This document shows positions 1,827-38,207 of a stretch of DNA of 41,931 bases, piece after piece. A model generated the notes under the pieces. It was not told the DNA's origin. It saw only the letters and a program-made list of their open reading frames with translations, and searched no databases. The position numbers and the translations under genes were made by a program. Position 1 is the first letter of the stretch; each line of letters starts with the position of its first letter. This DNA is from Candidatus Aegiribacteria sp. (GTDB taxonomy: Bacteria; Fermentibacterota; Fermentibacteria; Fermentibacterales; JCC-6): assembly GCA_021108005.1 (NCBI GenBank), contig JAIORS010000229.1:1-41931 (forward strand). The letters are read 5' to 3'.

Positions 1827-4097
1827 ATGCAGCGTTTACGGCTTGAAATTAAAGGAGCGGTTCAGGGAGTGGGTTTCAGGCCCTTTGTATACCGTCTTGC
1901 CCATCGATTTAACCTTCAGGGCTGGGTGTCCAACACCTCAAAGGGTGTAGAGGTAGAGGTTGAGGGAAATACTGAGGTTCTCAAGAGGTTTGCTGAAGCG
2001 ATACTGAAAGAAAAACCGCCCGTATCCATCGTGCAGGATATACGCAGTGAGTATCTTGAAATAGTCGGATATACCAACTTCGAAATACGAAGTAGCAGCG
2101 GGGGAAGGAGGGAAGCTTTCGTACTTCCGGATCTTGCAATCTGCAGTGAGTGCACCCTTGAGATACTTGACCCGGATAATAGACGTTACAGATATCCTTT
2201 CACAAACTGTACGAACTGCGGCCCCAGGTATTCGATCATCAATTCAATTCCGTACGACAGACCTTCAACCACGATGTCCGGATTCAGGATGTGCGGTGAA
2301 TGCATGGAGGAGTATGAGAACCCGCTTGACCGAAGATTTCATGCTCAGCCCAATGCCTGCCCTGAATGCGGCCCCCATCTGGAATTGTGGGATTCCTCTG
2401 GAGCTGTTATAGCGGAGCGGGACGATGCCCTCAGAAGAACCGCGGAGGAGATACTTGAAGGCAGAATACTGGCGGTAAAGGGGCTTGGCGGCTTTCATCT
2501 TATGGCACTTGCCCGATCCGATAAAACTGTTCAAACACTCCGTTCCCGCAAGGGAAGGAAGATGAAGCCCCTGGCCATGATGTTTCCATCATTCCCGATG
2601 ATTTCAGAAGTCTGCCATGTATCAACGGTTGAAAGAGATATCCTTGAATCATCCAGCTCGCCGATAGTTCTTCTAAGAAAGCTCGATAATGGGAGTGGAG
2701 CAGTACATATCTCGGAACTGGTTTCACCTTCCAATCCTGAATACGGAATAATGCTGCCGTATACTCCTCTTCATATTCTTCTAATGATGGAGATAGGAGA
2801 ACCTGTAATAGCCACAAGCGGAAATCTGAGCGATGAACCGATCTGCATCGATGAAAAAGAGGCTATTGAGAGGCTATCAGGCGTTGCGGATATTTTTCTT
2901 GTTCATAACCGACCGATAGCCCGGCATGTCGATGATTCTATTGTCAGAATTTTCAACAACAGGGAAATGGTACTGCGGAGGGCGAGAGGTTACGCACCAT
3001 TGCCTTTGAGAATGGAATACGATGAATCTGCATCAGTTATTGCCACAGGAGGGCATCTGAAGAATACACTGGCCCTGTCAATCGGAAGGAACGTATTTAC
3101 CAGTCAGCACATAGGGGATCTGGAATCACCGCAGGCCATAAGGGCTTTCGGTGAAGTCTGGAACAGTATAGAAGATCTGTACGATGCTCATCCCGATACT
3201 ATCGCCTACGATATGCACCCGGACTATATCTCATCTGTACGGGCAAGAGAATCACAACTCAGGGGTATTCCGGTTCAGCATCATATTGCCCATGTGTTCT
3301 CGTGCATGCTGGACAGGGGAATCGTACCCCCTCTGCTTGGTGTTTCCTGGGATGGAACCGGATACGGCCCGGATGGAACAGTATGGGGTGGCGAGTTCTT
3401 CCACATCACGGACGGTACTGTGAAAAGGATAGCTCACCTGAAACGGTTTCCGCTGCCTGGCGGAGATAAAGCCGCACGGGAACCAAGAAGATCAGCACTG
3501 GGGCTTCTTTCAAGGCTATACAATGATCCGGTGAAGTACCTTCCGGCTGGTACATTTTCCACAAAAGAGACCGATGTAATAAGGCAGATGCTGGCGTCGG
3601 AGGTGAATTCTCCCCTTACTTCAAGTGCTGGAAGGCTGTTCGATGCAGTTGCCTCGATCCTCGATCTTTATCAGACTATTGAGTTCGAGGGGCAGGCGGC
3701 GATGGCTCTTGAGCACGCGATAGGGGGTGTCAAGACTGAGGAATTTTATTCTGTTGACATGATTCAGGCTACTGGAGAACCTATCGTACTCGACTGGGCT
3801 CCCCTTATCAAAGGTGTTATCATGGATGTTGCGGAAGGGATGAGCAACGGTATCATTTCGGCTAAATTTCATAATGCCCTTGCTGCCGGAATCGTTGCGG
3901 TAGCGCATAGGGTTGGAGAGAAGAAGGTCGTCTTCAGTGGAGGCTGCTTTCAGAACGTTTACCTTCTGCGGAGAGTTTTGAATTTACTCGAAAATCTAGG
4001 TTATGAACCGGTTATTCACAGAAGCCTTCCCGCTAACGATGGAGGTATCGCGCCTGGTCAAGTAGTGGCAGCTATATTTATGAAATCAAAGGAATGA
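1827..4097 (+). CDS. hypF: HypF carbamoyltransferase for the hydrogenase cyanide ligands
   Basis: A 756-residue enzyme that makes carbamoyl-adenylate from carbamoyl phosphate and ATP and passes the carbamoyl group to the C-terminal Cys of HypE. Domains in order: an acylphosphatase-like domain (residues 1-90, with QGVGFRPF); two zinc-finger blocks with four CxxC pairs (Cys106/109, 128/131, 156/159, 178/181); a YrdC-like adenylation domain (about 200-370); and a Kae1/HypF C-terminal domain with the metal-binding HHIAH motif. The length matches intact HypF. It leads the plus-strand unit hypFCDE and diverges from hypAB. No frameshift or missing domain is seen. Confidence 0.97.
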   Translation: MQRLRLEIKGAVQGVGFRPFVYRLAHRFNLQGWVSNTSKGVEVEVEGNTEVLKRFAEAILKEKPPVSIVQDIRSEYLEIVGYTNFEIRSSSGGRREAFVLPDLAICSECTLEILDPDNRRYRYPFTNCTNCGPRYSIINSIPYDRPSTTMSGFRMCGECMEEYENPLDRRFHAQPNACPECGPHLELWDSSGAVIAERDDALRRTAEEILEGRILAVKGLGGFHLMALARSDKTVQTLRSRKGRKMKPLAMMFPSFPMISEVCHVSTVERDILESSSSPIVLLRKLDNGSGAVHISELVSPSNPEYGIMLPYTPLHILLMMEIGEPVIATSGNLSDEPICIDEKEAIERLSGVADIFLVHNRPIARHVDDSIVRIFNNREMVLRRARGYAPLPLRMEYDESASVIATGGHLKNTLALSIGRNVFTSQHIGDLESPQAIRAFGEVWNSIEDLYDAHPDTIAYDMHPDYISSVRARESQLRGIPVQHHIAHVFSCMLDRGIVPPLLGVSWDGTGYGPDGTVWGGEFFHITDGTVKRIAHLKRFPLPGGDKAAREPRRSALGLLSRLYNDPVKYLPAGTFSTKETDVIRQMLASEVNSPLTSSAGRLFDAVASILDLYQTIEFEGQAAMALEHAIGGVKTEEFYSVDMIQATGEPIVLDWAPLIKGVIMDVAEGMSNGIISAKFHNALAAGIVAVAHRVGEKKVVFSGGCFQNVYLLRRVLNLLENLGYEPVIHRSLPANDGGIAPGQVVAAIFMKSKE

Positions 4098-4110
4098 TGG
4101 GGGTATACTG

Positions 4111-4407
4111 ATGTGCCTGGGAGTTCCCGGAAAGATCGAGAAGATATCGGGAAGTGATGATCCTGTTTTCGTAACCGGCATGGTGAATTTCGGAGGTGTA
4201 CTGAGAGAAGTCTGCCTTGCCGGTGTCCGGAATGCAAAGGTTGGTGATTGGGTGATTGTCCATGCTGGCTTTGCTCTTAACAAGCTCAAAGAGGAGGAGG
4301 CTTTTGAAGTTTTCGATTACCTGAGGCAGATATCCGAATTCGGACGGGAAGAACTTGACGATGGGAAAGACACATTCGATCAAACAGAAAAGATTGAGAC
4401 ACGTTGA
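4111..4407 (+). CDS. hypC: HypC, hydrogenase maturation chaperone
   Basis: A 98-residue chaperone of the HypC/HybG/HupF family. It begins MCLGVPGKI; Cys2, exposed after Met removal, carries the Fe(CN)2CO unit together with HypD and contacts the hydrogenase large subunit. The family's second half is also clear ([15 protein letters not shown], then [13 protein letters not shown]). It starts 13 bases after the hypF stop, with a G-rich Shine-Dalgarno (GGGGGT) at a suitable distance. Its stop codon overlaps the TTG start of hypD. The C-terminal 20 residues are longer and more charged than in a minimal HypC. Confidence 0.96.
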
Positions 4408-5504
4408 AGTACGTATCTGAATACCGCGACAGGGACACCGCTCTTAAGTACGCTGATCTTATAAAACAGCTTGTAACCCAAAAATGGAGCATAATGGAAG
4501 TCTGCGGCGGGCAGACTCATTCCATTGTCAAGTACGGTATAGATCAGCTTCTTCCGGATACTGTAACTCTTATCCACGGTCCAGGGTGCCCCGTGTGTGT
4601 AACTCCAGTAGAGCTGATTGATCAAGCTGTTTTGATCGCCAGCCTTGAAAACGTTATCTTCTGTTCGTTCGGTGATATGCTGCGGGTTCCGGGCAGCTCT
4701 GGTGATCTTCTTGGAGCTAAAGCATCAGGTGGAGATGTCCGAATGGTGTATTCTCCGATTGACGCGGTACAGATAGCTGCCGGTAATCCGGAAAGAGAAG
4801 TTGTTTTCTTCGCTGTGGGTTTCGAGACCACCGCTCCCGTAACTGCCGCCGCAGTGCTTCAGGCTGAACGTCTCGGACTCGGTAACTTCTCGATGCTTGT
4901 GTCTCATGTTCTGGTTCCTCCAGCGATTGAAACCATTCTTTCCAGCCCTGACTGCGTTGTCCAGGGCTTTCTTGCGGCCGGGCATGTATGTGCCGTAATG
5001 GGCTATACCGAATACGAACCTGTTGCTGAGAAGTATAGTGTTCCAATTGTCGTTACAGGTTTTGAACCCCTTGATATTCTTGAAGGCATTTACATGTGTC
5101 TGCAACAGCTTGAACAGGGCAGAACGGAAGTCGAGAATCAGTACCTCAGGGCTGTTTCCCGAGAAGGCAATCCGGCTGCTATTGAACTGATGCGAAGAGT
5201 TTTCGAAATAGCAGACCGGAAATGGAGGGGAATAGGGGGAATCCAGGACAGCGGCCTCAGCCTCAGAGACAGCTTTTCGAAGTTCGATGCCGGCAGGAAG
5301 TTCAAAGTCAGCAGCTATGAAGTCGAGGAACCGGAAATCTGTATTTCTGGAGAAGTTCTTAGAGGAAATAAGAAGCCACATGAATGTTCTGCGTTTGGAA
5401 CGGAATGTACACCGGAGCATCCTCTTGGAGCACCGATGGTTTCCTCAGAGGGAGCCTGTGCTGCATATTACCGCTACAGATGTGTAAGGAAACCCGATGA
5501 ATAA
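4404..5504 (+). CDS. hypD: HypD, Fe-S scaffold for Fe(CN)2CO assembly
   Basis: A 366-residue [4Fe-4S] protein that forms the scaffold complex with HypC on which cyanide groups are reduced and attached to iron. Conserved motifs are CGGQTH (Cys34) and GPGCPVC (Cys62, Cys65), plus C-terminal Cys residues (CSAFGTEC and [10 protein letters not shown]) for the cluster. The start is TTG at 4404. The translated start KYVSEYR aligns with the beginning of other HypD proteins and the TTG overlaps the hypC TGA, so no upstream ATG is needed. The last eight bases overlap hypE, indicating tight coupling. Confidence 0.96.
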
Positions 5505-6552
5505 CCGCGATATTTCACAAATGACATGCCCTATTCCACTTGCCGATTACCCTGAGGTGACCATGGCGCATGGCGGTGGAGGAAGGTTGATGAACGATCT
5601 TATCGACAGGGTCATACTGAAGGCTTTCTCGAATCCCATTCTTGAAGCCAGACACGATGGAGCAGTTCTTGCGACAGAGGCGGGAAAATTGGCCTTCGCC
5701 ACGGATTCACATGTTATTACGCCTTTATTCTTTCCCGGAGGTGATATAGGCGCTCTTGCCGTATACGGAACCGTTAACGACCTTGCCATGTGCGGAGCCC
5801 GTCCCAGGTGGCTCAGTGCGAGTTTCATCATCGAAGAAGGGTTTTCCATGGAAACCCTCTGGAGGGTTGTTGTCTCGATGGCTGAAGCGTCGAAAAAGAC
5901 TGGCATTTCAATAGTCACCGGTGATACGAAAGTCGTGGACAATGGCAAGGGCGACGGTATTTACATCAATACCTCTGGAATCGGTATCATCCGTCCAGGT
6001 ATCGAGATCGCTCCTTCAAGGATAAGGAAAGGCGATGCGGTGGTTCTCAGCGGTGATATAGGCAGGCACGGTATAGCTGTTCTGGCCGTTCGAGAAGGGA
6101 TACATCTGGAAAGTGGAATCCGAAGCGATCTGGCTCCACTTGATTCCATGGTTGAAGACCTGCTGGACGCGGATCTGGATGTACACTGCATGAGGGATCT
6201 TACGAGAGGAGGCCTGGCAAGCGGACTTAACGAGATAGCTTCCATGACCAACTGTTCAATCAGGTTAGAAGAGAATCTTATTCCGGTTCACGATGAAGTT
6301 CAGGGCGCCTGTGAAATACTGGGCTTTGATCCGATTTACGTAGCTAACGAGGGCAAGTTCGTGGTTATCCTCCCTCGGGAAAACGGCAAAAAGGCAGTGG
6401 AAATCCTGAGACATCATGAAAGCGGTCATCAGGCTGAGATAATAGGTTACGTCGAAAAATCTACCTACGCTGATGTACTGATGAACAGCAGTATAGGATC
6501 AGAGAGAATTGTCGATATGATGAGCGGTGAACAACTGCCCAGAATCTGCTGA
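5497..6552 (+). CDS. hypE: HypE, carbamoyl dehydratase (thiocyanate-forming)
   Basis: A 351-residue PurM/AIR-synthase-family enzyme. It accepts the carbamoyl group from HypF on its C-terminal Cys and dehydrates it with ATP to a thiocyanate, the source of the CN ligands. The C-terminus ends PRIC, with the essential Cys as last residue (351). The N-terminal [14 protein letters not shown] and the FATDSHVI segment are family signatures. The ATG at 5497 overlaps the end of hypD by eight bases. This is the last gene of the hyp unit; the structural hydrogenase genes must lie outside the window. Confidence 0.96.
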
Positions 6553-11857: not shown

Positions 11858-13105
11858 ATGGCGTTTTCAGACAGTACTAGAGGCCTGTTTACAGATGAAA
11901 TAGAGAAAATCAAGGAAGATGGTCTCTTCAAAGAAAAAAGGTTCATCTGCTCAGAGCAGGACGCGGAAATTGAAGTTGAGTATCCCGAGGGCGCAGCCCA
12001 CAAGAAAGTTCTCAATTTCTGCGCGAATAATTACCTGGGCCTTTCAAGTCACCCCGATGTAATCAAGGCGGCCCACGAAGGCCTCGATGCCCGTGGTTAC
12101 GGCATGAGTTCCGTAAGGTTCATATGCGGCACGCAGGACATACACAGAGAACTCCAGGACAAGGTATCAGCCTTCCTGGGGATGGAGGATACCCTTCTGT
12201 TTCCCTCATGCATGGATGCGAATTCGGGTGTTTTTGAGGCGATACTTGGCCAGGAAGACGTGATCATAGCCGACAGGCTCATCCATGCATCACTTGTTGA
12301 CGGTATACGTCTATGTTCGGCCGAGTACGATACATTCAAACATATGGATATGAAGCATCTTGAAAAGAAGCTTAAGCTGCATCAGGATAAAAGAACCAGA
12401 CTGGTTGTGACCGACGGTGTGTTTTCGATGGATGGCGATCTCGCTCCACTTGATGAAATGGTCGCGCTTTGCAACCGTTACGATGCTATGCTTCTGGTCG
12501 ATGACTCCCATGCATCGGGTTTCATAGGAAAGACCGGCAGGGGAACACACGAGTATTACGACGTGATCGATAGTATTGATATTATCACAACTACATTCGG
12601 AAAGGGACTTGGAGGAGCTTCCGGAGGTTGCGTATCCGGTCGGAGCGAGCTAATTGAACTCTGCCGCCAGAAGGCAAGACCGTACCTGTTCAGTAATTCC
12701 CTCGCGCCCCCTATCGTTAACGGATCGATCAAAGTAATTGATCTCATATCGAGTAACACTGAACGCCGTGACAAGCTTGAATGGAATACGAAGTACTTCC
12801 GTGAGAAGATGGAAGAGGCTGGCCTGAACATGCGTCCCGGCGTTACTCCAATAGTTCCCGTGATGCTGTACAACGCAAAGCTGGCTAACGATATGGCCAG
12901 GGATATGTACGCAGAAGGTATTTATGTGATAGGATTCTGTTTCCCTGTAGTCCCCGCGGGAAAAGCGAGGATTCGCGTCCAGCTTTCAGCCGCCCATGAA
13001 AAGGAACACCTCGATAAGTGTGTTGAGGCTTTCAAGAAGGTTGGGGAGAAGTACGGAATACTCGGTCTTGGCAAGAAAGAGATAATCGAGAAATACGGCA
13101 ATTAG
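11858..13105 (+). CDS. KBL-like alpha-oxoamine synthase, divergent paralogue
   Basis: A 415-residue PLP enzyme of the family that condenses an acyl thioester with an amino acid and loses CO2 (KBL, AONS, ALAS, SPT). PLP Lys249 lies in TTTFGKGLGGASGG, the ring-binding Asp/His in VDDSHASGF (213-221) and the ring-stacking His143 in LIHASLVDG. It resembles glycine C-acetyltransferase overall, but differs from the canonical Kbl at 22839-24041 around the active site: PSCMDANSG replaces SSCFDANGG, LIHAS replaces LNHAS, and SAEYDTF replaces KAKRYRY. It also has an N-terminal insert and a longer C-terminus. Its place right after an ACP gene suggests an acyl-ACP or different amino-acid substrate. Automatic annotation would call it kbl; I leave the symbol open. 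Confidence 0.85.
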   Translation: MAFSDSTRGLFTDEIEKIKEDGLFKEKRFICSEQDAEIEVEYPEGAAHKKVLNFCANNYLGLSSHPDVIKAAHEGLDARGYGMSSVRFICGTQDIHRELQDKVSAFLGMEDTLLFPSCMDANSGVFEAILGQEDVIIADRLIHASLVDGIRLCSAEYDTFKHMDMKHLEKKLKLHQDKRTRLVVTDGVFSMDGDLAPLDEMVALCNRYDAMLLVDDSHASGFIGKTGRGTHEYYDVIDSIDIITTTFGKGLGGASGGCVSGRSELIELCRQKARPYLFSNSLAPPIVNGSIKVIDLISSNTERRDKLEWNTKYFREKMEEAGLNMRPGVTPIVPVMLYNAKLANDMARDMYAEGIYVIGFCFPVVPAGKARIRVQLSAAHEKEHLDKCVEAFKKVGEKYGILGLGKKEIIEKYGN

Positions 13106-15243: not shown

Positions 15244-15767
15244 TCCGCAGTTCTCGGTGACAATTTACAAACCAGGTACGCAGGTACCAATCGTAAAGAT
15301 TATAGCTTTGTATCGTAAGCAGGCAAGAGCAGAGGATTGGGATGTTTTCATAAAATTCGCTGCAGCATGTATATATAATAGTAAAACATCCTTTATTAAT
15401 TGTGCTTGTTTACCTTTTACGGGGTTGAAAAAGGCCGTTTCGAAGACTGTTTCACTGAGAAAATTACAGAATATGTTCATTGTTATGCTGTACGGAAGTC
15501 CGCAGGCATGATATTCAAGCATGGAAAGCACTGGACAATTGTCTATCGACAATTATGAATATATACTGTTAGTATATGAATGGTTGCTGAAGGCGCACTC
15601 TCATCACGGTTATTCAAATAGAAAGAGAACTTGAAACAGCGAAATTCCGGTTACTGGATCCGTTGAAATTAGAAGGCAAGGAAGTGATGAAAGCGCTGCT
15701 GGTTGTAAGTACGGAGAGTATGAAGCGTATTCGAATAAGCTGATACGGAAAGGAACGTATTTCTTTT
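15244..15767. other. 524-base stretch without a supported gene
   Basis: This gap separates the minus-strand barrel gene from the plus-strand signalling genes. It is AT-richer than its surroundings. I see short inverted repeats (GACAATTGTC at 15536-15545, ATATAC/GTATAT at 15561-15577). An open plus-strand frame of 50 codons between stops (15591-15740) reads as IQIERELETAKFRLL with no ATG near its beginning; it could be a small gene remnant or a GTG/TTG-started peptide. A 95-codon minus frame at 15265-15552 has poor composition and no Shine-Dalgarno. The GGAAAGGAA at 15747-15755 is the ribosome site of the next gene. Confidence 0.5.
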
Positions 15768-16457
15768 ATGACCATTAACGGTACACTTAGCGATATAGGT
15801 TTGGTTTCACTGCTCCAGTTTCCGAATTCCAGCGGGAAGACAGGTATGCTTACAGTGATATCCATTGATGGCAAGGCTGACTTCTACTATCGGAAGGGCG
15901 AGCTTGTACATGCCAGGTATGGTAAGAAGACCGGTAAGTATGTTCTTGTGGATACAGTCGATTGGAATGAAGGACGGTTTACTTTCGAGACTGGAATGGA
16001 ACCGGAAGAAACAACCATCCATGATGATCTTCACAATATTCTGATCTGGGCTCTTAGAGAGAGAGACGACAAAAAGAGGAATCAGGATGAGGAGGATATC
16101 GGTTCTGCAGAATTCGATACTGAACTATCAAAAAAACTCGATGGTCTTCTGAAATCAGCTATAGATATCCAGTACATTGGCATATTCTCTAATGCCGGGC
16201 AGCTCCTGGCCAGATCGAATTTCGAGAGGAGTTGTCTTCAGGAAATTGAGCCATTCATGGAATCTGTGACCAGCTTTATTAGTAGCTATCCAGGAAAGGT
16301 TACAGGAAAAGCATTGATAGAAGCGTCTGATATCTCAATTGCGATAGAAGGAATTGATGAAACAGAAACCGTAGTTATATCTACCGGACCCGAAATCAAA
16401 TTTGACAAATTGTCTATGGTTCTCTTTGAAATAGTATGTGAACTAAGAGGAGTGTAA
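15768..16457 (+). CDS. DUF4388 (PATAN)-roadblock/LC7 signalling protein
   Basis: A 229-residue cytoplasmic protein with two domains. Residues 3-100 match DUF4388/PATAN (ingtLSDIGLVSLLQF opening, GKADFYYRKGELVHARYG core, then WNEGRFTFE), a domain found in PatA-like and gliding-related regulators. Residues 120-229 look like a roadblock/LC7 domain (LLKSAIDIQYIGIFSNAGQLLA, then SIAIEGIDETETVVIS), which binds small Ras-like GTPases such as MglA. No GTPase gene is nearby. It is 83 bases ahead of a cyclic-nucleotide-binding gene and belongs to a three-gene signalling set. Its partners are inferred. Confidence 0.8.
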   Translation: MTINGTLSDIGLVSLLQFPNSSGKTGMLTVISIDGKADFYYRKGELVHARYGKKTGKYVLVDTVDWNEGRFTFETGMEPEETTIHDDLHNILIWALRERDDKKRNQDEEDIGSAEFDTELSKKLDGLLKSAIDIQYIGIFSNAGQLLARSNFERSCLQEIEPFMESVTSFISSYPGKVTGKALIEASDISIAIEGIDETETVVISTGPEIKFDKLSMVLFEIVCELRGV

Positions 16458-16540
16458 CGAAGATAGAGGATACGGAAGAAAGAATCTTACAAAATTGTGT
16501 TTGAACAACTTGAGAATACCTTACACGAAAGGACCGTTAA

Positions 16541-17065
16541 ATGGATTATGATGATAGCATTTTTACGCCTGTGGAATTTCTTGAAGAAAAGAGCTTTGTT
16601 GATGCCTGCAGTACTCACAGTACTGAAGAGCAGGAAATAATAATCGATCAGGGTTCATTCAGTAACGATCTGTATATCATAAGAAGTGGTCGATTCGTGG
16701 TGAGCGATTCAATGGGTGAAGAATTTGTACTCGCAGCTCTGTCTGCAGGTGATGTCTTCGGTGAAATGGCATTCTTCAGAAGCGGAATTAGATCGGCCAG
16801 CGTAACCTGTGTTGCTCCCGGTGAGATTCTCTCCATAAGCAGGGAAACTTTCAAGAAACTGCACGAGACGAATCCTGATCTGGCAATACGGGTTACATGC
16901 ACTCTTGCGGGAATGCTCTCGGACAGGCTTAAGCATGCTGATGCAACCCTCAGCCTTTTATCAGACGACAGCGAACTAAGACAGAGGTATGAAATCCGGA
17001 GGCTGATAAGGGAGCTGAAAAGCACGATACACAAGCTGGGCAACGAAGATTCAGAAGAGAGTTAG
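16541..17065 (+). CDS. Cyclic-nucleotide-binding-domain protein
   Basis: A 174-residue protein with one CAP-type nucleotide-binding fold (about residues 10-125). The phosphate-binding cassette is visible as GDVFGEMAFFRSGIRSASVT, close to the FGE(x)AL...RSA consensus; the phosphate-gripping Arg and preceding Glu are present. There is no helix-turn-helix, only a C-terminal helical tail of about 45 residues rich in Arg and Leu, probably for dimerisation or partner contact. It is therefore a receptor rather than a transcription factor. AAAGGA precedes the ATG. It sits between the roadblock protein and the GGDEF-ATPase-TPR protein. Confidence 0.85.
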   Translation: MDYDDSIFTPVEFLEEKSFVDACSTHSTEEQEIIIDQGSFSNDLYIIRSGRFVVSDSMGEEFVLAALSAGDVFGEMAFFRSGIRSASVTCVAPGEILSISRETFKKLHETNPDLAIRVTCTLAGMLSDRLKHADATLSLLSDDSELRQRYEIRRLIRELKSTIHKLGNEDSEES

Positions 17066-17155
17066 TATCAGCGTATTTTCTGAACCGCTGAACCGGATAG
17101 GGTTAGGTACACTGTACTGGACATCTGGAAAAACCTCGATTAGTAAGTAATCATT

Positions 17156-20100
17156 ATGAACAGAGATGTTACCGGCAGTTTCAGCAGTATGGGGATTGAC
17201 GCCCTGACAGGTCTTAACAACAGATCTTATCTCGATACCATTAATGAGACGTATATCCGCAGGGAGGTTGAGTGGTCGCTTCTCATGCTTGATGTTGATC
17301 ACTTCAAGCTTATAAACGATATCTATGGACATTTGACCGGGGACAAGGTTTTAAGGCAGACAGCACTCACCGTACAGGTCAATCTGAAGGAATCAGACAC
17401 AGCAGTAAGATTCGGCGGTGATGAATTCATTGTAGTTCTTCCCGACACAGGGGAAGAGGGGGCATTGGATTTGGCCCAGCGTCTGATCTTCGAAATAAAG
17501 CGTATTTCATTTAAATCAGGTATTCATGTCAGTGTTTCCATAGGAGTAAGCCATAGCAGAACTACCGACGTCTCCATTACGGATATCGTATCACGTGCCG
17601 ATAAAGCTCTTTACAAGGCCAAGGAAACTGGCAGGGGCAGGTTCTTTTTCTTCACTGAGGATTTGACCGAAAACGATATTCCGGAAATCAACTTTTCACA
17701 TCTTGTGGGGCGGAGACCGGAGATTCAGAAACTCAGGCAGCTGCTCGAGGAATCCGTGACCGATTCCAGCAGATTTGCAATTGTTTCCGGAGAGGCCGGT
17801 GTAGGTAAAACAAGACTGGTGGATGAACTGCTGAATTACTGTGATTTCATGAAATCAGTTGTCGTGAAGAACTCGGTAATGGAGCATACACAATATCAGT
17901 CATTTTCCCTTCTGATAGATCCACTCAGGGAAGTGCTGTCCGGTCTTAGCGACAGCGAGTTAACTACTGTACGTATGGCTGTTGAACCCGTTCACCCGGC
18001 TACGCTCGACCTTTTTCCCGAGCTTCAGGCCTCCGTCATGGACGATACTATTTACTTCCGCGAAGAAAGGCTCAGATTCAGGATATTCAGGGATATTTCA
18101 GTTCTTTTTGCGGTCCTGTCCACGATTCATCCAATTACACTGATTCTGGATAATCTGCAATGGATCGCAGAGCCTGATCTGGCAATACTTTCCTTTGTAG
18201 CGAGGAATACCCCGGAGGCTAATATTCTCTATCTATGCATTATGCGAAGGGATGAAACCTCTGAGGATATATTTAAGAAACTCTCGTCAATAAAATCTTC
18301 CCTGCCACTTCTGAGCCTTGAGATTAGTAAAATGACCACTGAAGAAACACGGAACATGATACTCTTCGCGCTGAAGGATCCAAACATACCACAAGATGTA
18401 CAGGAATTCCTGATAGCTCAATCCGGAGGAAACCCGCTGTTTCTTCGCGAACTGCTGACATCATGCGTGGATTCGGGGTACATTTCCTGCAGCAAATCAG
18501 GAGAAAAAAACTATAACCTGCCCGACGATGTTGAAGTGCCTGACAGTATTGGACAGATCATTACGATGAAACTCTCAAACATAAGCACTGAAGCCGGTGA
18601 ATTGCTAAAAATCGTATCCCTTACGCCTGATCAGTTCAACCTTTCACTTCTTGAGGGCATGACAGGCCGCGACAGGGTGGAACTTGCCCGAAGACTGGAT
18701 GAGTGCATAAAAGCCGGGATTATTGAAGAGATCAGCGATGGAAGGAATAACATAAGTTTCAGATTCACAAACGGTGCTGTACGATATTACTTATCCTCAG
18801 ACCTCCCAGGATCACTGAAAGGAACCTACCACCAGAGAATGGCAGCCTATTTTGAAGGATTTTACGAGAAGGGTAGAAAGGAACTTCTTACTGCCGTTGC
18901 GTATCACTATTCCAGAAGCCAGGACAATAGTCATGCTGCCAGGTACGCTCTACTCGCGGCAAATCAGGCCTTAAACACTGGAGCAAACGGAGATGCTATA
19001 CATTGGTACGCGATCTATCTGGACAGGACTCCTGTTGATTCGGAACATGCCAGCATTTTCTCCGTCCAGATTAATCTGGGATCTTTGTATTCGATTACCG
19101 GTGAGGTTGAAAAGGCGGACAATTATCTGAAGAAGGCTCTGGAACTGTCTTCAAGCCCCAAAGAGCTTGCGGCTGTTCATTTAAGGCTTGGAAGGAATAA
19201 TCTTAACAGAAGCCTCTATCCGGAGACTCTTGAGAACTACGATAATGCAGTAAAGATGTGCATGGAAGACGATTCAGCAGATCCAATAGTTTTCAGAACA
19301 CTGATTGAGACACTTTTAGAAACATCTTTTGTGCACAGGCTTCAGGGGAACTACGATAAAGCCTTTTCGTGTCTTGACAGGACTGAAAATATTATGGGTG
19401 AGAACGATGCTGAAATACCTGAGGATATCTTCGCCCTGTACTGCACAAGGAAAGCCGACGTTATCTCGGAACTGGGTTCAGAGGATGAGGCTCTGGAACT
19501 TTATGAAAACGCAATGAAGATATTCGAAGAAATCGATGACATGCCGGGTCAGGCAACAGTACTGAATAATATGCACGAGATCTATTCCCACCAGGGAAAT
19601 TACAGCAGGAGTCTCAGTACACTGGAAGAGGTTATCCGGATGAATATGAAACTGGATGACAAGATGGGCCTGGCAATAGGGTACTACAATATCGCTGGAT
19701 ACTATATGGAAATAAATATGCTTGACCTTGCAATGGAATACTACGATAAATACATGGAAATCAACGATATAATTAAAAATGAACTTGGAAATGGGTATGG
19801 AAAATTCGGTCTTGGCAACCTTTACTGGCTGGAGAGTCAACTGGAAAAATCCAGGTTTTGTCTGGAGGAGGCTTCTGAGATATTCGAAAAGCTGCGGTGC
19901 AATCAGATGGGGACCAAATGTGATCTTTTAATAACCAACATCTTCGTGCGGATGGATGAATTCGAAAAGGCGCAGGAGATACTGGATTCAATCGATATCG
20001 AAACGAGCAATCCTTCAACTGAGATGGAAACACTGTATCTGAGGGGACTTCTGCGGATCTCCCGCGGGGATTCGGATAGAGAATCTCTGGATACTGCAGT

Positions 20101-20392
20101 TACACATTTCAGAACGGTTATTGATTCTTCGGATGAACACTCCGAAGTTGATATTGCGACATACTATTCAGCACTTGCAACTGCCCTTCGAAAACTTGAC
20201 AGGAACGAAGATATGTTTTTGGCTCTAAGAGAAGGTTCTGAGAAATTGGCGAAAGAACTCCAGCGTGTTAGGCCCTACTCTATAAGGAACAGCATGATGA
20301 CAAGACGGGAAATAGCTGAGTTCATCGATACTTGCCGGAACAGTGGTCTTCCATTCCCCCCCGACGGGTTCATTTTCAGTACAGACCGATGA
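17156..20392 (+). CDS. GGDEF-ATPase-TPR signalling protein
   Basis: A 1078-residue multidomain protein. Residues 12-168 are a diguanylate cyclase domain with DALTGLNNR, the DVDHFKLIND metal motif and an intact RFGGDEF (GGDEF 87-91). The inhibitory RxxD site reads KESD (78-81), so product inhibition may be weakened. From 181 comes VGRRPEIQKL and an AAA_16/STAND-type ATPase with P-loop GEAGVGKT (212-219) and a Walker-B-like LILDNLQWI. Residues about 600-1050 are tandem TPR repeats (for example INLGSLYSITGEVEKADNYL). The order GGDEF first, then ATPase and TPR, is unlike LuxR-type MalT regulators because no DNA-binding domain follows. It is probably a c-di-GMP producer gated by a nucleotide-dependent TPR sensor. 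No strong Shine-Dalgarno precedes the ATG. Confidence 0.88.
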   Translation: MNRDVTGSFSSMGIDALTGLNNRSYLDTINETYIRREVEWSLLMLDVDHFKLINDIYGHLTGDKVLRQTALTVQVNLKESDTAVRFGGDEFIVVLPDTGEEGALDLAQRLIFEIKRISFKSGIHVSVSIGVSHSRTTDVSITDIVSRADKALYKAKETGRGRFFFFTEDLTENDIPEINFSHLVGRRPEIQKLRQLLEESVTDSSRFAIVSGEAGVGKTRLVDELLNYCDFMKSVVVKNSVMEHTQYQSFSLLIDPLREVLSGLSDSELTTVRMAVEPVHPATLDLFPELQASVMDDTIYFREERLRFRIFRDISVLFAVLSTIHPITLILDNLQWIAEPDLAILSFVARNTPEANILYLCIMRRDETSEDIFKKLSSIKSSLPLLSLEISKMTTEETRNMILFALKDPNIPQDVQEFLIAQSGGNPLFLRELLTSCVDSGYISCSKSGEKNYNLPDDVEVPDSIGQIITMKLSNISTEAGELLKIVSLTPDQFNLSLLEGMTGRDRVELARRLDECIKAGIIEEISDGRNNISFRFTNGAVRYYLSSDLPGSLKGTYHQRMAAYFEGFYEKGRKELLTAVAYHYSRSQDNSHAARYALLAANQALNTGANGDAIHWYAIYLDRTPVDSEHASIFSVQINLGSLYSITGEVEKADNYLKKALELSSSPKELAAVHLRLGRNNLNRSLYPETLENYDNAVKMCMEDDSADPIVFRTLIETLLETSFVHRLQGNYDKAFSCLDRTENIMGENDAEIPEDIFALYCTRKADVISELGSEDEALELYENAMKIFEEIDDMPGQATVLNNMHEIYSHQGNYSRSLSTLEEVIRMNMKLDDKMGLAIGYYNIAGYYMEINMLDLAMEYYDKYMEINDIIKNELGNGYGKFGLGNLYWLESQLEKSRFCLEEASEIFEKLRCNQMGTKCDLLITNIFVRMDEFEKAQEILDSIDIETSNPSTEMETLYLRGLLRISRGDSDRESLDTAVTHFRTVIDSSDEHSEVDIATYYSALATALRKLDRNEDMFLALREGSEKLAKELQRVRPYSIRNSMMTRREIAEFIDTCRNSGLPFPPDGFIFSTDR

Positions 20393-22754: not shown

Positions 22755-22838
22755 CTCGCCTTCTAACACTTGACATAATACTATATTCCATTCTTCGGTT
22801 ACAGTTTGTGAAAATTGATATTGAAAGGTTACTGGAAT

Positions 22839-24041
22839 ATGTATACTGACAGCTTTCGTGAGGCACTGATATCGAAGCTTGAAAAGACCGCGGAGAACGG
22901 TACTTTCAAGAGGGAACGGATCATTACCACAAGGCAGGGAACGGAAGTAGGAGTTCAGAATTCGGGAGAAGTCCTGAATTTCTGCGCAAATAACTACCTT
23001 GGGCTTTCAGGCGATCAGAGGTTGGTTGAGAAGGCCTGCGAGATACTTGAGGAGCGTGGCTTTGGTCTTTCATCGGTTCGCTTCATATGTGGTACGCAGG
23101 ATATTCATAAAGAACTGGAAAAGAAGATAGCGGATTTCCTCCTCAAGGATGATACAATACTCTATTCGAGCTGCTTTGATGCCAACGGAGGGCTTTTTGA
23201 ACCTCTGCTGACGGATGCTGACGCCATTATCTCCGACCAGTTGAACCATGCTTCAATCATCGATGGTGTAAGGCTCTGTAAGGCAAAAAGGTATCGCTAC
23301 AGCCATGCCGATCTTGAAGATCTTGAAGCGGTGCTTGTTCACGCCCGCAGGGCCAGGATTAAAGCCATCGTTACTGACGGCGTCTTCTCCATGGACGGGG
23401 AAATAGCTCCTCTACCGGGCATATGCGATCTCGCGGAAAAATACGGAGCACTTCTTATTGTCGATGACTCACATGCAACTGGATTCATAGGTGATTCGGG
23501 AAGAGGCAGTATTGAATACCATGGAGTTATGGAGAGGGTGGATATCGTGACATCGACCTTCGGAAAGGCTCTTGGTGGTGCCTCAGGCGGGTTCACTTCC
23601 GGACCATCGGAGGTAATAGAGATGCTCCGGCAGCGATCCAGACCGTACCTTTTCTCAAATACACTCGCCCCTGTAGTTGCAGGGACAACCCTTGCCGTCA
23701 TTGACCTGATCGAGAAATCAAGCGAAGAAAGAGACAAACTCAGGGATAACCAGAGACGCTTCAGAAAGAAGATGACCGAAGCGGGATTCAGGATTATTAA
23801 AAGTGATCATCCTATAGTACCTGTGCTTTTCGGCCATCTGCCTGATGATGCGGCGCTTGCCCAGAAATTCGCGGATGAACTGCTTCGAAAAGGGATATAC
23901 GCGATAGGATTCTTCTATCCAGTTGTTCCAAAGGGGGAATCCAGGATAAGGGTTCAACTGTCGGCGGCCCATACAACAGAACAGGTTGATATCTGTGTTG
24001 AAGCGTTCAGGGATGTCGGTAGAAAACTTGAAGTACTGTAG
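22839..24041 (+). CDS. kbl: Glycine C-acetyltransferase (2-amino-3-ketobutyrate CoA ligase)
   Basis: A 400-residue PLP enzyme that cleaves 2-amino-3-ketobutyrate with CoA to glycine and acetyl-CoA, second step of threonine degradation. It matches the Escherichia coli enzyme along its whole length: NFCANNYLGL, SVRFICGTQDIHKELE, SSCFDANGG, NHASIIDGVRLCKAKRYRY, VDDSHATGF (208-216), PLP Lys243 in TFGKALGGASGG, and GFFYPVVPKGESRIR. I chose ATG 22839 because the protein then begins MYTDSFREAL like its relatives; a TTG 24 bases upstream (22815) is the alternative. Its first-step partner, threonine 3-dehydrogenase, is encoded about 10 kb downstream. It differs clearly from the paralogue at 11858-13105. 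Confidence 0.95.
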   Translation: MYTDSFREALISKLEKTAENGTFKRERIITTRQGTEVGVQNSGEVLNFCANNYLGLSGDQRLVEKACEILEERGFGLSSVRFICGTQDIHKELEKKIADFLLKDDTILYSSCFDANGGLFEPLLTDADAIISDQLNHASIIDGVRLCKAKRYRYSHADLEDLEAVLVHARRARIKAIVTDGVFSMDGEIAPLPGICDLAEKYGALLIVDDSHATGFIGDSGRGSIEYHGVMERVDIVTSTFGKALGGASGGFTSGPSEVIEMLRQRSRPYLFSNTLAPVVAGTTLAVIDLIEKSSEERDKLRDNQRRFRKKMTEAGFRIIKSDHPIVPVLFGHLPDDAALAQKFADELLRKGIYAIGFFYPVVPKGESRIRVQLSAAHTTEQVDICVEAFRDVGRKLEVL

Positions 24042-26656: not shown

Positions 26657-27964
26657 ATGAAAAAGAAAGATAGCAGTAAGAACTCTATCAAATCATCCTC
26701 TATAATTACTGAACCGGATTATATCAAAAAAGATTTACTTTCTGCAGAAATTCCAGAACAGCTTCACTCGATCTTTTCAAAAGCTCAAATTTACATTGAT
26801 CGCTATTTCAACAGTCGAAAAGAGAATGCAAAAGAGGGGATGATAAGCATTTCAGGTGAACGGTATCTTCTTCTCAGAGCTGATACTCTGGCTTTGGATT
26901 TTTTTGATAGTGTACACAGCATCTATGGTGCAAGTAATGAAGCACACAGTGTTATCAATGCCCTTCTTTTTGACATTTCATATACAATGGGTCGATCAGA
27001 TGCAAGACTATTTCATGAAAGTATGGGACTAACCAACCCGCTCGAAAAACTTTCAGCCGGTCCACTTCATTTTGCTCACACTGGCTGGGCCAAAGTTCGT
27101 ATTGAACCTGAATCAAATCCAACTCCCGATGAGAATTACATTCTTTATTTTGAGCATAGTTACTCTTTTGAAGCGGATAGTTGGATAAGGAAAAAACGTC
27201 ATTCAAGAACACCCGTTTGTATCATGAGTTCAGGATATTCTTCGGGATGGTGTTCAGAAAGTTTTGGTTTACCACTTGTTACCGTTGAATATTCATGTCG
27301 TGCTAGAGGTGACGCGTCCTGCAGTTTCATAATGGCTCCGGCAAATCGTATTAAGGAACATGTTACGCGTTTATTAGGGAAAGACAAATTGTATGGTCTT
27401 TATTTTCCTCGTTATTTCAGTCGTCGGGATCATGAAGAAAAACTTTGGCTTATGGCATTTTTTGACCCGCTTACGGGATTGGCAAACCGTGTTCGATTCA
27501 GGGAGAAAATTGTTGTGGCATTCAAACGTGCTGATCGCTATCATCATTTGACTGTTATACTATTTATTGATCTTGATGACTTTAAACATATCAATGACAA
27601 ATACGGACATGGAGTTGGTGATGCTGTTCTGAAGGAAATTGCAAAACGATTAAAACATAATATCCGTTCTACTGATACGATTGCCAGAATTGGAGGAGAT
27701 GAGTTTACTGTTCTGCTTTCACAGGTTAAAGAGAAAACAAATATCTGCTCTATTGTTGAAAAAATACTTTCAGAAATTAAACAAACGATTAATCACAATG
27801 GTAATAGTATTTATGTAACCGCGAGCATTGGGATCAGTATTTATCCATTTGATGGGAGTTCACCGGAGATGTTGATCAGTGATGCGGATGATGCGATGTA
27901 TAAAGCTAAACAAAAGGGGAAGGATTGTTACAGTTTTTCAGATTCAGATACTCCTTCTTCCTGA
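26657..27964 (+). CDS. V4R-GGDEF diguanylate cyclase
   Basis: A 435-residue protein. Residues 65-230 form a V4R/XylR-N-like ligand-binding domain (SSGYSSGWCSESFGLPLVTV, then EYSCRARGDASCSFIMAP), a fold that senses small hydrocarbons in XylR-type regulators. The conserved Cys residues (199, 214, 222) could bind a metal or heme. Residues 268-428 are a GGDEF domain with DPLTGLANR, the metal motif LDDFKHIND and GGDEF at 346-350. The inhibitory RxxD (Arg337-Asp340) is intact, so product feedback is expected. It should make c-di-GMP in response to a bound ligand. The gene is AT-richer (many AAA and ATT codons) than its neighbours and lies among gene remnants, which suggests recent gain. Confidence 0.88.
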   Translation: MKKKDSSKNSIKSSSIITEPDYIKKDLLSAEIPEQLHSIFSKAQIYIDRYFNSRKENAKEGMISISGERYLLLRADTLALDFFDSVHSIYGASNEAHSVINALLFDISYTMGRSDARLFHESMGLTNPLEKLSAGPLHFAHTGWAKVRIEPESNPTPDENYILYFEHSYSFEADSWIRKKRHSRTPVCIMSSGYSSGWCSESFGLPLVTVEYSCRARGDASCSFIMAPANRIKEHVTRLLGKDKLYGLYFPRYFSRRDHEEKLWLMAFFDPLTGLANRVRFREKIVVAFKRADRYHHLTVILFIDLDDFKHINDKYGHGVGDAVLKEIAKRLKHNIRSTDTIARIGGDEFTVLLSQVKEKTNICSIVEKILSEIKQTINHNGNSIYVTASIGISIYPFDGSSPEMLISDADDAMYKAKQKGKDCYSFSDSDTPSS

Positions 27965-34583: not shown

Positions 34584-37500
34584 TCAAAGCGGCCTGGCAA
34601 GAATCACTACATCACACATTTCGCGGTATTCACCCGTATCTTCTGCCCGTGCATTGAGATAAATGATATACCTTCCCACCGGAAGCCTTCCTCCGTTCTC
34701 GTTCGTTCCATCCCATGTGACAACCCTGGATGAACCGCACGGTTCATTCTTTAGAAGCTGAAGCAGAAGTCTTCCCTGAACGTTATAGATTTCGAGTGTT
34801 ACTTCATTCTCCGTATGCTGGAAGTTCATTTCTATTGTAAGAACATCGTTCCTGCCGTTTCCGTCGGGGGAGAAAGGGTCAGGGTAATAATCAAGGAATT
34901 TCCCTGAGCTGCTGCCGCCTGCAGCGCAGCAGCTGTTGCATTTACCCGGAGTTCCACCTGCTGAGCAGCTGGCCCAGCTCGAAGCTTCGTATCCGCTGAA
35001 ATCCGGATTAATCTTCTCAAGGCTTACACCTGACGAACCGCCCCATTCGTCATCGTACGGCACGTAATCCATTACGTTTCCAGAGGAATTTCTGAGCATC
35101 AGTATATCCGCCCATTCCTCCCCCTGTTGCGTTGTATTGTTCAGTGTTGGCCAGTCTGGAGGCTGCAGAAGCGGGCATTGAACGTATGGCCAGATCGTTC
35201 TGAAAGCGGAGGAATCGGAGACAAGAACGGCGAAACTGTCAGGTTTTATTGTTGTGCTATCACTGCAGAACACGAACATTTCTCTGGAATCCTCGAAGGT
35301 CCAGCCCTCAAGCTGAACCGGACTGGAAGATCTGTTCACAATTTCAACCCATTCAGGATTGCCGGGGGAGGGGCTGTACATAATTTCATTAATGATAACC
35401 GGTCCGGATTCGTTCCATACGCACGAAGTAGAATCGTTTGAAGGGAAAGAATCCTCCGGACAGACGGCTACAGCAAAGAGAAGCATATCCCCGCTGCAGG
35501 AATTCCACTCGCAGTTGGCCAGGACAGTATCTCCCGGGACTATTACACCGCAGACATAACTGTCTATCAGTTCACTGCCAGATGGCGTTCCGCTTTCATC
35601 GATATCGCTGTAGAAGAAAACGGTCATTTCACTCGAAGGTATTGTGTCCGTTCCGGAGTTGGTGAACTCCGCAAGCAGGACAATATACTCGTCTCCAGGG
35701 CCCATGGGCGGCATGCATTCCATGTCTGCAGCCTCTGCGTCAATGCCATCTACGAAGAAAGGTGAAGGGTTTCCTGGAGTAGGGCCTTCAGGTGACGCGA
35801 ACCAGTTTTCTTCGGTGTCCGGTTCGATGGTTTCTTTTCTTTGAACGCTGTTGTCCTCACCCGGGTCAAAGGGGATTTCGTCCAGTTCGTCATCGTCTCT
35901 CATAAGGGGATCGTCGTAATCAAGCGGAGTGCCAAAGGTGGACATCACATTACAGGAGGCTGTTCCGGCAGATGAGTATAGAGTTACGGGATCATTACTG
36001 GAGAGACCATCGCCCAGCGTTGTATTGCCCGTAGCAAGCACTATGGTGCCCTGCGGAAAATCCCAGGGCTGGCTTCCTGTTGTGTATTCGCGGTCAAGGA
36101 TTACACCGTAACAACCTGCCAGCAGGTAGGGGGATTCAACTGCGTCAGGATCCTGCAGAATTCCGAACTCATCGTTCCATTGAACAATTTCATCAACGGC
36201 GTCGCCATCTGTGAAGCGGCACCCGGAGATGTCAAAAACGCCTGGACCCGGATAGTAGATTTCAATGAACTCATCGTAATCCTCTGCCGAGGGGTTGCAT
36301 ACAACTTCGGTCACAACCAGAGAGACGCCTTCACCTGTCATAAAACTCTTATGAAGAACATCATTTTCCGGAACCAGGTCTCCTGGAAGGTAAACCCCTG
36401 CAGCGGCAAGGTAGCACCCTTCTGCAGGGGTGCTTACCGTAACCGTCACGGTATAGGTCTCGTTGGGGTAGAGGGAGTCAGCCATTTCAATGCAGCATAT
36501 TTCATCGGGTTGTGGAAGCGAATCCGCGTTGGAATCAATGAAGATCGTCACTTCTATCCCGTAAGCTGTGGCTGTACCCCGGTTTGACACTACCGATGAT
36601 ATCTGCAAGGGTTGACCGGGCTGGGGCTGGGAAGGGGTTAGAATAAGAGAATCGACCGAGGCATCAGAAGTATCTGCGAATACTGCAGGACACCCCGGTG
36701 TTCCTCCCTCGGGTGAAACAGTCCAGCAGTATTCTTCGTCCGGAAGGTCCGATGACTTTCTTTCCACACTATGATATTCTCCTGGATCGAAGGGTATACC
36801 GTCAAGGCCGTCGTCATCGCAGAGCAGAGGGTCATCGTATTGAAGAGGAGTTCCGTAGGTTGAAAGGACATTCACCTGAGCAGAGCCGGACATGCTGTAC
36901 AGCGTGATCGGATCGTTGCCCGTCAAGCCATTGCCTATGGTTGTATTTTCAATGGTGAATACATAGGTGGATTCTCCCAGATTGTATTCCTGCATGCTCT
37001 CAGCATATTCTGGGTCCATAATTAGCCCGTAGTGTCCGGCAGGTATACAGCAGCCGTAAACCGCGTCAGGATCGCTTAGAAGCGCCTCGTACCATTCACA
37101 GATATAATCAAGGGCATCACCGTCCGTGAAAGAACATCCGATAACAGGAAAAACACCCGGACCGGGGTAGAAAACCTCAATGAATTCGCCGGTATCCTCA
37201 TCAAGAGGATTGCACATAACTTCGGTAATCACGGGGTTTATTCCGCCTCCTACGGCTGTAGGACAGGACGCGAAATCGTCTTCCGGATATTCGTCCTCCG
37301 GAACGATCGAGACAGCAGAGGGGAGGAACCAGCCCTGCTCAAGCGATATTGAAGCATTGAATGTTTCAGTGAATCCTGGTTGAAGCAATTCCGCGGAAAA
37401 CTCCGCCAGAATCTCATCTGGAGATGCGACGGAATCCCCCTGACTGTCAAGGAACAGGACAAGTGTACCTGAGGAGGGTGAAGTGTTTCCCCAGCATGTG

Positions 37501-38207
37501 AAGGAAGCGCTGAGCTGGAACAGCTCGCCGGGAGATGGTTCCGAAGGGACCGTCCATACGCTATCACACGAAATGTTCAGTGTATCCGGAGGCGCCTCAG
37601 CGTGAGAGCCTGGAGAGCCACCTTCAGGACCCGTTATCCAGTAACCTTCCTGGTCGGGTGAGTACCAGGGAAAACGTTCAACCGTAAAGCCCTCGCCGGG
37701 ATCGAAAGGAATATCGTCAAGGCCGTCATCGTCACGGTTCTGCCAGGCATCAGAGGGTACGGGTGTTCCATACGTGCTTACTGCGTTGCTGTTCGTGGTC
37801 CCGCCCTGATTGAAAAGCGTTAGCGGATCAGATGAAGCCGCAAAACCGTTGCATATGGAATGGTCGCCTGTTGTCAGTATCAGGGTTCCGGAGGGGATAT
37901 TGTAGACAGGATGATCGAGGTAGTCCAGTTCGAAGATCAATGCGAAGCTCTCTGCGGGTAATGTATCTGTGCCAAGCAGCATGCCCGGGTGGGGAAAGGG
38001 CCCGTAGGCAGCTTCGTTCCACAATAGCAATTCATCAAGGGCGTCGCCGTCTGTAATAGAATATCCTTCAAGACATATCGGCTCGGACGAGGGATTGTAT
38101 ATCTCGACGAATTCGCCGGATGCTTCGTGAAGCGGGTTCGTAGTGATTTCAGTTATCACAGGGGACTGTGAAAGCAGTACGAACTGCAGGATTGCATAAA
38201 ATATCAT
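34584..38207 (-). CDS. Lamin-tail repeat secreted protein with FlgD-like C-terminal domain
   Basis: A 1207-residue extracellular protein. A short hydrophobic start (MIFYAILQFVLLSQS) serves as signal peptide. Three units of about 305 residues begin near 16, 325 and 629 (each PVITE/VVTE, then GEF(V/I)EI, FTDGDA, and a DDDGLDDIPFDPGE-type acidic loop at 159-172, 464-477 and 771-784), each made of a lamin-tail domain and a CARDB-like beta domain. A fourth, divergent lamin-tail domain starts near 936. Residues about 1115-1207 form a FlgD-like Ig domain (YYPDPFSPDGNGRNDVLTIE, then GTNENGGRLPVGRYIIYL), which in many FCB bacteria is the sorting or anchoring end. It is rich in Asp/Glu/Ser and has many Cys. 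It may bind calcium or DNA-like polymers; function not established. A consensus promoter lies right at its start. Confidence 0.85.
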   Translation of the reverse strand: MIFYAILQFVLLSQSPVITEITTNPLHEASGEFVEIYNPSSEPICLEGYSITDGDALDELLLWNEAAYGPFPHPGMLLGTDTLPAESFALIFELDYLDHPVYNIPSGTLILTTGDHSICNGFAASSDPLTLFNQGGTTNSNAVSTYGTPVPSDAWQNRDDDGLDDIPFDPGEGFTVERFPWYSPDQEGYWITGPEGGSPGSHAEAPPDTLNISCDSVWTVPSEPSPGELFQLSASFTCWGNTSPSSGTLVLFLDSQGDSVASPDEILAEFSAELLQPGFTETFNASISLEQGWFLPSAVSIVPEDEYPEDDFASCPTAVGGGINPVITEVMCNPLDEDTGEFIEVFYPGPGVFPVIGCSFTDGDALDYICEWYEALLSDPDAVYGCCIPAGHYGLIMDPEYAESMQEYNLGESTYVFTIENTTIGNGLTGNDPITLYSMSGSAQVNVLSTYGTPLQYDDPLLCDDDGLDGIPFDPGEYHSVERKSSDLPDEEYCWTVSPEGGTPGCPAVFADTSDASVDSLILTPSQPQPGQPLQISSVVSNRGTATAYGIEVTIFIDSNADSLPQPDEICCIEMADSLYPNETYTVTVTVSTPAEGCYLAAAGVYLPGDLVPENDVLHKSFMTGEGVSLVVTEVVCNPSAEDYDEFIEIYYPGPGVFDISGCRFTDGDAVDEIVQWNDEFGILQDPDAVESPYLLAGCYGVILDREYTTGSQPWDFPQGTIVLATGNTTLGDGLSSNDPVTLYSSAGTASCNVMSTFGTPLDYDDPLMRDDDELDEIPFDPGEDNSVQRKETIEPDTEENWFASPEGPTPGNPSPFFVDGIDAEAADMECMPPMGPGDEYIVLLAEFTNSGTDTIPSSEMTVFFYSDIDESGTPSGSELIDSYVCGVIVPGDTVLANCEWNSCSGDMLLFAVAVCPEDSFPSNDSTSCVWNESGPVIINEIMYSPSPGNPEWVEIVNRSSSPVQLEGWTFEDSREMFVFCSDSTTIKPDSFAVLVSDSSAFRTIWPYVQCPLLQPPDWPTLNNTTQQGEEWADILMLRNSSGNVMDYVPYDDEWGGSSGVSLEKINPDFSGYEASSWASCSAGGTPGKCNSCCAAGGSSSGKFLDYYPDPFSPDGNGRNDVLTIEMNFQHTENEVTLEIYNVQGRLLLQLLKNEPCGSSRVVTWDGTNENGGRLPVGRYIIYLNARAEDTGEYREMCDVVILARPL

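Follow-up and report, generated by a model that had tools for sequence, protein, structure and literature searches.

Three signalling genes of Candidatus Aegiribacteria as the probable remainder of a GTPase-hydrogenase operon

Introduction

STAND ATPases carry a signature composed of hhGRxxE, Walker A and GxP-type motifs, with two acidic residues in the Walker B motif, and fusions of class III cyclases with ATPases and tetratricopeptide repeats (TPR) have the order cyclase, ATPase, repeats. A similar layout occurs in the last of three consecutive genes at 15768-20392 of a 41,931-nucleotide stretch of DNA from Candidatus Aegiribacteria sp. (GenBank assembly GCA_021108005.1, contig JAIORS010000229.1; the whole stretch is termed the window). 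The three genes encode a DUF4388-Roadblock protein, a cyclic-nucleotide-binding (CNB) protein and a protein combining a GGDEF domain, a STAND-like ATPase and TPR, and they are probably what remains, under selection, of a longer operon in which relatives combine an MglA-type GTPase with a [NiFe]-hydrogenase.

The GGDEF-ATPase-TPR protein resembles MalT and PH0952, in which an N-terminal effector is followed by an ATPase core with hhGRxxE, Walker A and GGNP motifs and then by TPR, and which serve as the model for ATP-gated TPR STANDs (PMC6468293). It differs from both in that its effector is a diguanylate cyclase domain and in that most aligned members of its family have asparagine for the second acid of Walker B. 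Residues 181-617 match the TOMM system kinase/cyclase fusion family of class III cyclase-ATPase-TPR proteins (TIGR03903, 3.3e-31, below the family cut-off), whereas the window protein has GGDEF in place of the kinase and class III cyclase, and its predicted product is cyclic di-GMP (c-di-GMP).

The long operon of the relatives also has described counterparts. Its GTPase and Roadblock proteins match MglA and PF03259, as in the MglA/MglB polarity switch, but in the loci read they are tied to a hydrogenase and not to known motility genes. Unlike the actinobacterial conservons (CvnA-D), the long operon has no histidine kinase, and it combines two Roadblocks and the DUF4388-Roadblock protein with a DnaA-like ATPase and a hydrogenase; the GTPase is gone from the window, where only an mglA tail represents the MglA/Roadblock module found in relatives. 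The hydrogenase is most like HydDB [NiFe] group 3c (Mvh/Vhu), from which it differs in its link to the MglA/Roadblock module and in that no hdr genes were recognized in the long-form run L195. A published hydrogenase-to-c-di-GMP signalling idea, HydDB group 2c ('diguanylate cyclase-linked, putative'), concerns another hydrogenase group according to the accessible part of PMC5037454; the long-operon enzyme is 3c-like and not group 2, and its cyclase is of the STAND type.

Results

The long operon in related genomes

The initial annotation had described three genes in a row, and the three open reading frames (ORFs), all on the + strand and with ATG starts, were confirmed as real and correctly delimited: the DUF4388-Roadblock gene (15768-16457, 229 amino acids (aa)), the CNB gene (16541-17065, 174 aa) and the GGDEF-ATPase-TPR gene (17156-20392, 1078 aa), with gaps of 83 bp and 90 bp between them. 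Their surroundings were compared over a genus set of 19 genomes (G000-G018), in which G000 is the assembly of the window (96.9% complete, 231 contigs). The trio was contiguous in G000 and its sister G013 only, whereas a hydrogenase cassette parts DUF4388 from CNB in the rest of the genus; the unit that is conserved is thus not the contiguous trio.

The long form comprises twelve genes, in the order Roadblock, Roadblock, MglA-type GTPase, DUF4388-Roadblock, DnaA-like ATPase, 161-aa protein, [NiFe]-hydrogenase small and large subunits, ferredoxin, maturation protease, CNB and GGDEF-ATPase-TPR; nine of these are missing from the window and from G013. All twelve were contiguous in G012, G017, G016, G003 and G009, with a DUF4388-to-CNB distance of ∼5.5 kb, and the first eleven, not followed by the GGDEF gene, in G001 and G006. 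The run was intact in G002 until the contig ended inside CNB, and pieces fitting the long form lay on broken contigs in G007, G010, G011 and G014. Since a ten-gene core (Roadblock to protease), without CNB and GGDEF genes, was contiguous in G039 and G041, which belong to a different family within the order, the long form is old. Its GTPase matched solved MglA (2.6e-55) and its two Roadblock proteins matched PF03259. The DnaA-domain ATPase (L195 5611-6963) is kept across the order, the 161-aa protein (L195 6999-7484) had no Pfam or NCBIfam match and the C-terminal half of the ferredoxin (L195 9837-10565) was weakly like PF14196.

Relatives of the DUF4388 protein (at least 57%) and of the CNB protein (at least 73%) co-occurred in 14 of the 19 genomes, with the CNB gene cut by a contig end in G002 and the DUF4388 gene cut in G010; both were absent from G004, G005, G008, G015 and G018, and neither occurred alone. 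This strict pairing, like the common strand and the short gaps, would suit a dedicated three-gene unit that evolved as such, with GTPase and cyclic-nucleotide sensing and a c-di-GMP output. Against that, the three genes are adjacent in just two genomes, the GGDEF gene occurs without the other two and what is left of two deleted genes sits exactly at the joins. As to origin the dedicated unit is already refuted, and overall it was considered improbable.

Remnants of the deleted genes

Within the 524 bp upstream of DUF4388 and directly abutting that gene, positions 15617-15754 (+ strand) aligned to L195 4755-4893, the 3' end of the mglA-type GTPase gene. The local alignment score was 91, compared with at most 32 in 30 shuffles, and the translation ends as intact MglA does. 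In the 83-bp gap that separates DUF4388 from CNB, positions 16494-16535 (+ strand), just before CNB, aligned to L195 11057-11099, the 3' end of the hydrogenase-maturation-protease gene (score 54, maximum of 30 shuffles 30), and read IVFEQLENT where the intact protein ends IIFEQFENT. G013, which was separately assembled, carried matching remnants with scores of 78 and 55 against best shuffles of 35 and 27. The missing lengths, measured on L195, were ∼1.3 kb and ∼5.4 kb. The MglA-type GTPase partner anticipated by the initial annotation is thus present in the operon of relatives and deleted in the window.

Because the mglA and protease tails remain in the window, loss and not insertion made the trio; insertion was rejected on this ground and because outgroup families carry the long form. 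Relocation within G000 was considered for the two genes searched, the hydrogenase large subunit and MglA, and was not found: there was no operon-type hydrogenase (at least 55% identity) elsewhere in G000, where the best large subunit reached 34%, and no close MglA, the best being 45%.

Ahead of the first join, a conserved upstream block, CTGGACA...AATATATA, was located at 15531-15575 (+ strand) by upstream alignment. All 10 aligned upstream regions shared its CTGGACA core without change, and a GAAAG resembling a ribosome-binding site was also retained. The block is probably the promoter of the old operon, kept after the deletion. In the DUF4388 tree G000 and G013 fell among operon-bearing genomes, next to G001 and G007 (support 100), and in the CNB tree they were sister to all remaining genus sequences but those of G001 and G007 (support 85); the two trees disagree on the exact neighbour and agree on G000 and G013 as a pair.

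Selection on the surviving genes

Ratios of non-synonymous to synonymous substitution (dN/dS) were calculated pairwise between G000 and G013 by the Nei-Gojobori method. Values were 0.105 for the DUF4388 half and 0.451 for the Roadblock half of the first protein, 0.108 for CNB, and 0.110, 0.110, 0.117 and 0.184 for the GGDEF domain, the ATPase, residues 431-625 and the TPR of the third. The survivors are therefore under purifying selection, with dN/dS around 0.1. Among operon-bearing genomes the Roadblock half gave 0.135-0.440 (29 finite of 36 pairs), many of the comparison pairs having dS near or above 1, where the method is rough; the G000-G013 value is the highest of the finite pairs compared.

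That value, and the loss of nine of twelve partners, would be expected if the trio were a functionless, decaying remnant and the next to be lost. The frames are however intact in two genomes, dN/dS is 0.105-0.184 in every part but the Roadblock half, and the GGDEF, Walker A and cNMP motifs are retained with the upstream block. There seems little chance that the trio is dead or dying.

The DUF4388-Roadblock and CNB proteins

The domain content given by the initial annotation was recovered by Pfam for DUF4388, cNMP_binding, GGDEF, AAA_16 and TPR, and its Roadblock assignment by predicted fold. In the first protein DUF4388 occupies residues 5-102 (E 2e-16) and a Roadblock/LC7-fold domain lies C-terminal to it, at ∼117-229. 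PF03259/Roadblock was not matched in this C-terminal half at E≤1 by Pfam, and profile-profile comparison by hhalign with the operon's own Roadblocks was weak (E 0.014, probability 3%). The predicted model has a predicted local distance difference test (pLDDT) score mostly of ∼65-75 in this half, with the order helix-strand-strand-helix-three strands-helix, and resembled solved MglB/Roadblock chains by Foldseek (E 6e-5 to 7e-4, prob 1.00). Because of this match in predicted fold the Roadblock call is taken to be right, and the modelled protein appears adaptor-like. DUF4388 presumably corresponds to the PATAN domain.

The CNB protein consists of a single cNMP_binding domain (2.2e-19) and a short C-terminal tail. 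At E≤1 Pfam found neither a DNA-binding domain nor an HTH family, and the protein does not have the layout of a CRP/FNR regulator. As a separate observation, a 326-aa protein in which two cyclic-nucleotide-binding stretches stand in tandem is encoded at G000:C134 39395-40336 (L033, L034) and was found in most genus genomes searched.

The GGDEF-ATPase-TPR protein

In the third protein GGDEF matched at residues 14-161 (6.4e-38; domain span 1-165), AAA_16 at 183-358 (2.2e-18; STAND-like ATPase span 183-∼620) and TPR families from ∼638 on (span ∼630-1036). In keeping with the STAND-like ATPase named in the initial annotation, the motifs LVGRRPEI (hhGRxxE), GEAGVGKT (Walker A) and GGNPLF (GGNP/GxP-type) are present ahead of the repeat sensor, together with a Walker B-like stretch. 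The GGDEF active site, at residues 87-91, was invariant together with the other listed residues in 16 of 16 aligned proteins, and PF00990 scored 130.5 bits against a cut-off of 23.8. The domain keeps its catalytic motifs, and c-di-GMP synthesis is predicted.

The product-inhibition site RxxD is replaced by KESD (17387-17398, + strand), exactly at the expected place before RFGGDEF, in agreement with the initial annotation. In an alignment of 34 rows, from which L068 and L069 (repeats of L046 and L039) and L065 (a fragment that lacks the GGDEF domain) were omitted, KxxD occurred in 26, RxxD in seven (the paralogues L002-L005, and also L059 and L067, the last with two proteins) and GxxD in one (L066). 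The annotation's further suggestion, that output may escape product inhibition, was too strong: the cyanobacterial KxxD cyclase Alr3599 had an inhibition constant (Ki) of 16.0 μM compared with 3.7 and 2.4 μM for two RxxD enzymes, in the accessible part of PMC13075795, and by that precedent RxxD is not required for cyclase activity. By analogy, the KxxD site would weaken feedback inhibition without abolishing it.

GGDEF was matched 18 times in the genome of the window at E≤0.001 (17 over the cut-off), and this genome has four more full GGDEF-ATPase-TPR paralogues at 26-30% identity and one PilZ protein; c-di-GMP signalling is therefore probably in use. Another diguanylate cyclase, in which a V4R-like stretch precedes the GGDEF domain, is encoded at 26657-27964.

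The architecture had been called rare, which is partly borne out. Full-length N-terminal matches (query start ≤46, end ≥562, three candidates scored per genome) were found in at least 32 of the 42 genomes that represent the order and, outside it, in at least 10 of 343, these including G044, G166, G189, G214, G237, G260, G269, G327, G331 and G368. In a contig scan of named genomes the closest matches were L068 and L069 (Candidatus Fermentibacteraceae and Candidatus Aegiribacteria metagenome-assembled genomes); distant AGDEF-ATPase proteins of full architecture were L070 (Rokubacteria, 1409 aa) and L071 (Acidobacteria, 1288 aa), and the other matches were mostly GGDEF-only. An N-terminal GGDEF followed by ATPase and TPR is thus uncommon and not unique. 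Among the papers listed, the literature search found no account of GGDEF with a STAND/AAA ATPase and TPR. BcsE was set aside as a GGDEF-NTPase parallel, as its GGDEF is degenerate and the NTPase is the partner BcsQ according to the part of PMC7439463 available.

Association of the GTPase module with hydrogenase

An operon-type hydrogenase large subunit (at least 55% identity) was present in 20 of 385 genomes searched, namely 12 of the genus and G021, G028, G029, G033, G035, G039, G041 and G327. Roadblock and/or MglA genes lay on the hydrogenase contig in 14 of these 20. In G007 and G014 the contig breaks inside the DnaA-like gene between GTPase module and hydrogenase, and in G010 DUF4388 adjoins the DnaA-like gene. 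Linkage was consistent in 17 of the 20 carriers, one of them (G327) outside the order, where the hydrogenase run stands head to head with Roadblock, DUF4388 (a weak match), Roadblock, MglA and DUF4388. The hydrogenase occurred without a GTPase module within the 12 and 18 kb read in G028 and G029; the neighbourhood of G033 was left out of this reading. Around control hydrogenases at 38-40% identity (G119, G184, G202 and G362; a fifth, G261, was left out), nothing within 15-16 kb matched Roadblock or MglA at E≤1e-3.

The large subunit keeps the metal-ligand motifs CGVC and DPCLAC and a C-terminal tail. Among solved structures it was nearest to MvhA, and it scored 295 bits with the VhuA family, for which the cut-off is 800. 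No link between hydrogenase and MglA/Roadblock was found in a full-text literature corpus of limited size, in which absence is no proof; Syntrophobacterium and Geobacter papers naming both MglA and hydrogenases drew no link between them in the portions available. The gene partnership of an MglA/Roadblock GTPase with a [NiFe]-hydrogenase looks undescribed.

Neighbouring genes

The hydrogenase maturation genes hypF, hypD and hypE-like (AIRS) lie at 1827-6552, ∼9 kb upstream of the trio, and may be needed by the distant hydrogenase of G000, which is on another contig. Two aminotransferase-class paralogues, which we take to be 2-amino-3-ketobutyrate-CoA-ligase-like, flank the trio at 11858-13105 and 22815-24041; an aminotransferase-class gene directly follows the GGDEF-ATPase-TPR gene in G004, G006, G008, G015, G018 and G019. 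The region 34584-38207 encodes a 1207-aa protein that has lamin-tail domains and, at its C-terminus, a type IX secretion-type signal.

Discussion

The observations of the initial annotation were confirmed and its interpretation was supported in part, though not as a free-standing trio. The trio is probably the still-selected remainder of the twelve-gene GTPase-hydrogenase operon after two deletions, presumably still working and with a cyclase that would be gated by ATP. Gene content, synteny, remnants, selection and motifs were observed directly; gating by ATP, an inducer, the function of the CNB protein and the significance of the hydrogenase link are what we infer beyond them. Two deletions in the ancestor shared by the window and G013 took nine genes and left the tails of two, and the three survivors, which remain selected, presumably still work. 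Assembly gated by ATP is proposed by analogy with the TPR STANDs (PMC6468293). The resting GGDEF-ATPase-TPR protein would be inactive, as a monomer with bound ADP; binding of an inducer to the TPR/sensor part would allow the ATPase to bind ATP and oligomerize, and oligomerization would pair the GGDEF domains, so that c-di-GMP is made with feedback inhibition weakened by KxxD. The CNB protein lacks an output domain and probably makes the activity of the cyclase, or of another partner, depend on the level of cyclic nucleotides. The DUF4388-Roadblock protein has been left without its cognate GTPase, and the Roadblock half of it is apparently drifting.

Several observations weigh against this explanation. 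Walker B reads LDN in the window and in most rows, and LDD or LED in others, and in L054, the G021 orthologue, Walker A is broken and ends GKN, not GKS/T; ATP gating is therefore not secure. The full-length model of the 1078-aa protein, built from 3 sequences, has a pLDDT of 47, too poor for domain contacts. The relaxation of the Roadblock half is marginal, and since operon-bearing pairs reach 0.440 it is suggestive only. The GGDEF-ATPase-TPR orthologue (at least 60%; in 16 of 19 genus genomes, as a fragment in G002, and lacking in G001, G005 and G011) lies away from DUF4388 and CNB in G004, G006, G008, G015 and G018, and the gene is not next to CNB in G001, G006 and G011.

Since five genus genomes have it at another locus and three lack it beside CNB, the GGDEF gene may be a mere neighbour with its own signal, DUF4388 and CNB being the only operon remnants. 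Orthologues without the operon in G004, G008, G015, G018 and G019, the orthologue away from the operon in G006 and the core operon without a GGDEF gene in G039 and G041 speak for this; the gene nevertheless follows CNB in 10 genus genomes, operon-bearing ones included, with gaps of 33-90 bp in three measured and one extra ORF between in G014. The GGDEF gene is a loose associate of the other two, and that it is an unrelated neighbour is a possibility to be taken seriously, if not the favoured one.

As the remainder of the long operon, the trio is a signalling operon pared down, in which the parts are still selected and the scars of deletion can be read. This remnant is of moderate interest, and the operon behind it, which uncovers a conserved gene partnership of Ras-like GTPase, Roadblock and [NiFe]-hydrogenase, is the more interesting find. 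We suggest, tentatively, that in this partnership an MglA/Roadblock switch may be coupled to a soluble Mvh/Vhu-like [NiFe]-hydrogenase, such that H2 or redox state would be read out via the Ras-like GTPase or the hydrogenase controlled by it, that the genus may have added cyclic-nucleotide and STAND-gated c-di-GMP branches, and that the lineage of the window may have dropped hydrogenase and GTPase and kept the second-messenger branch.

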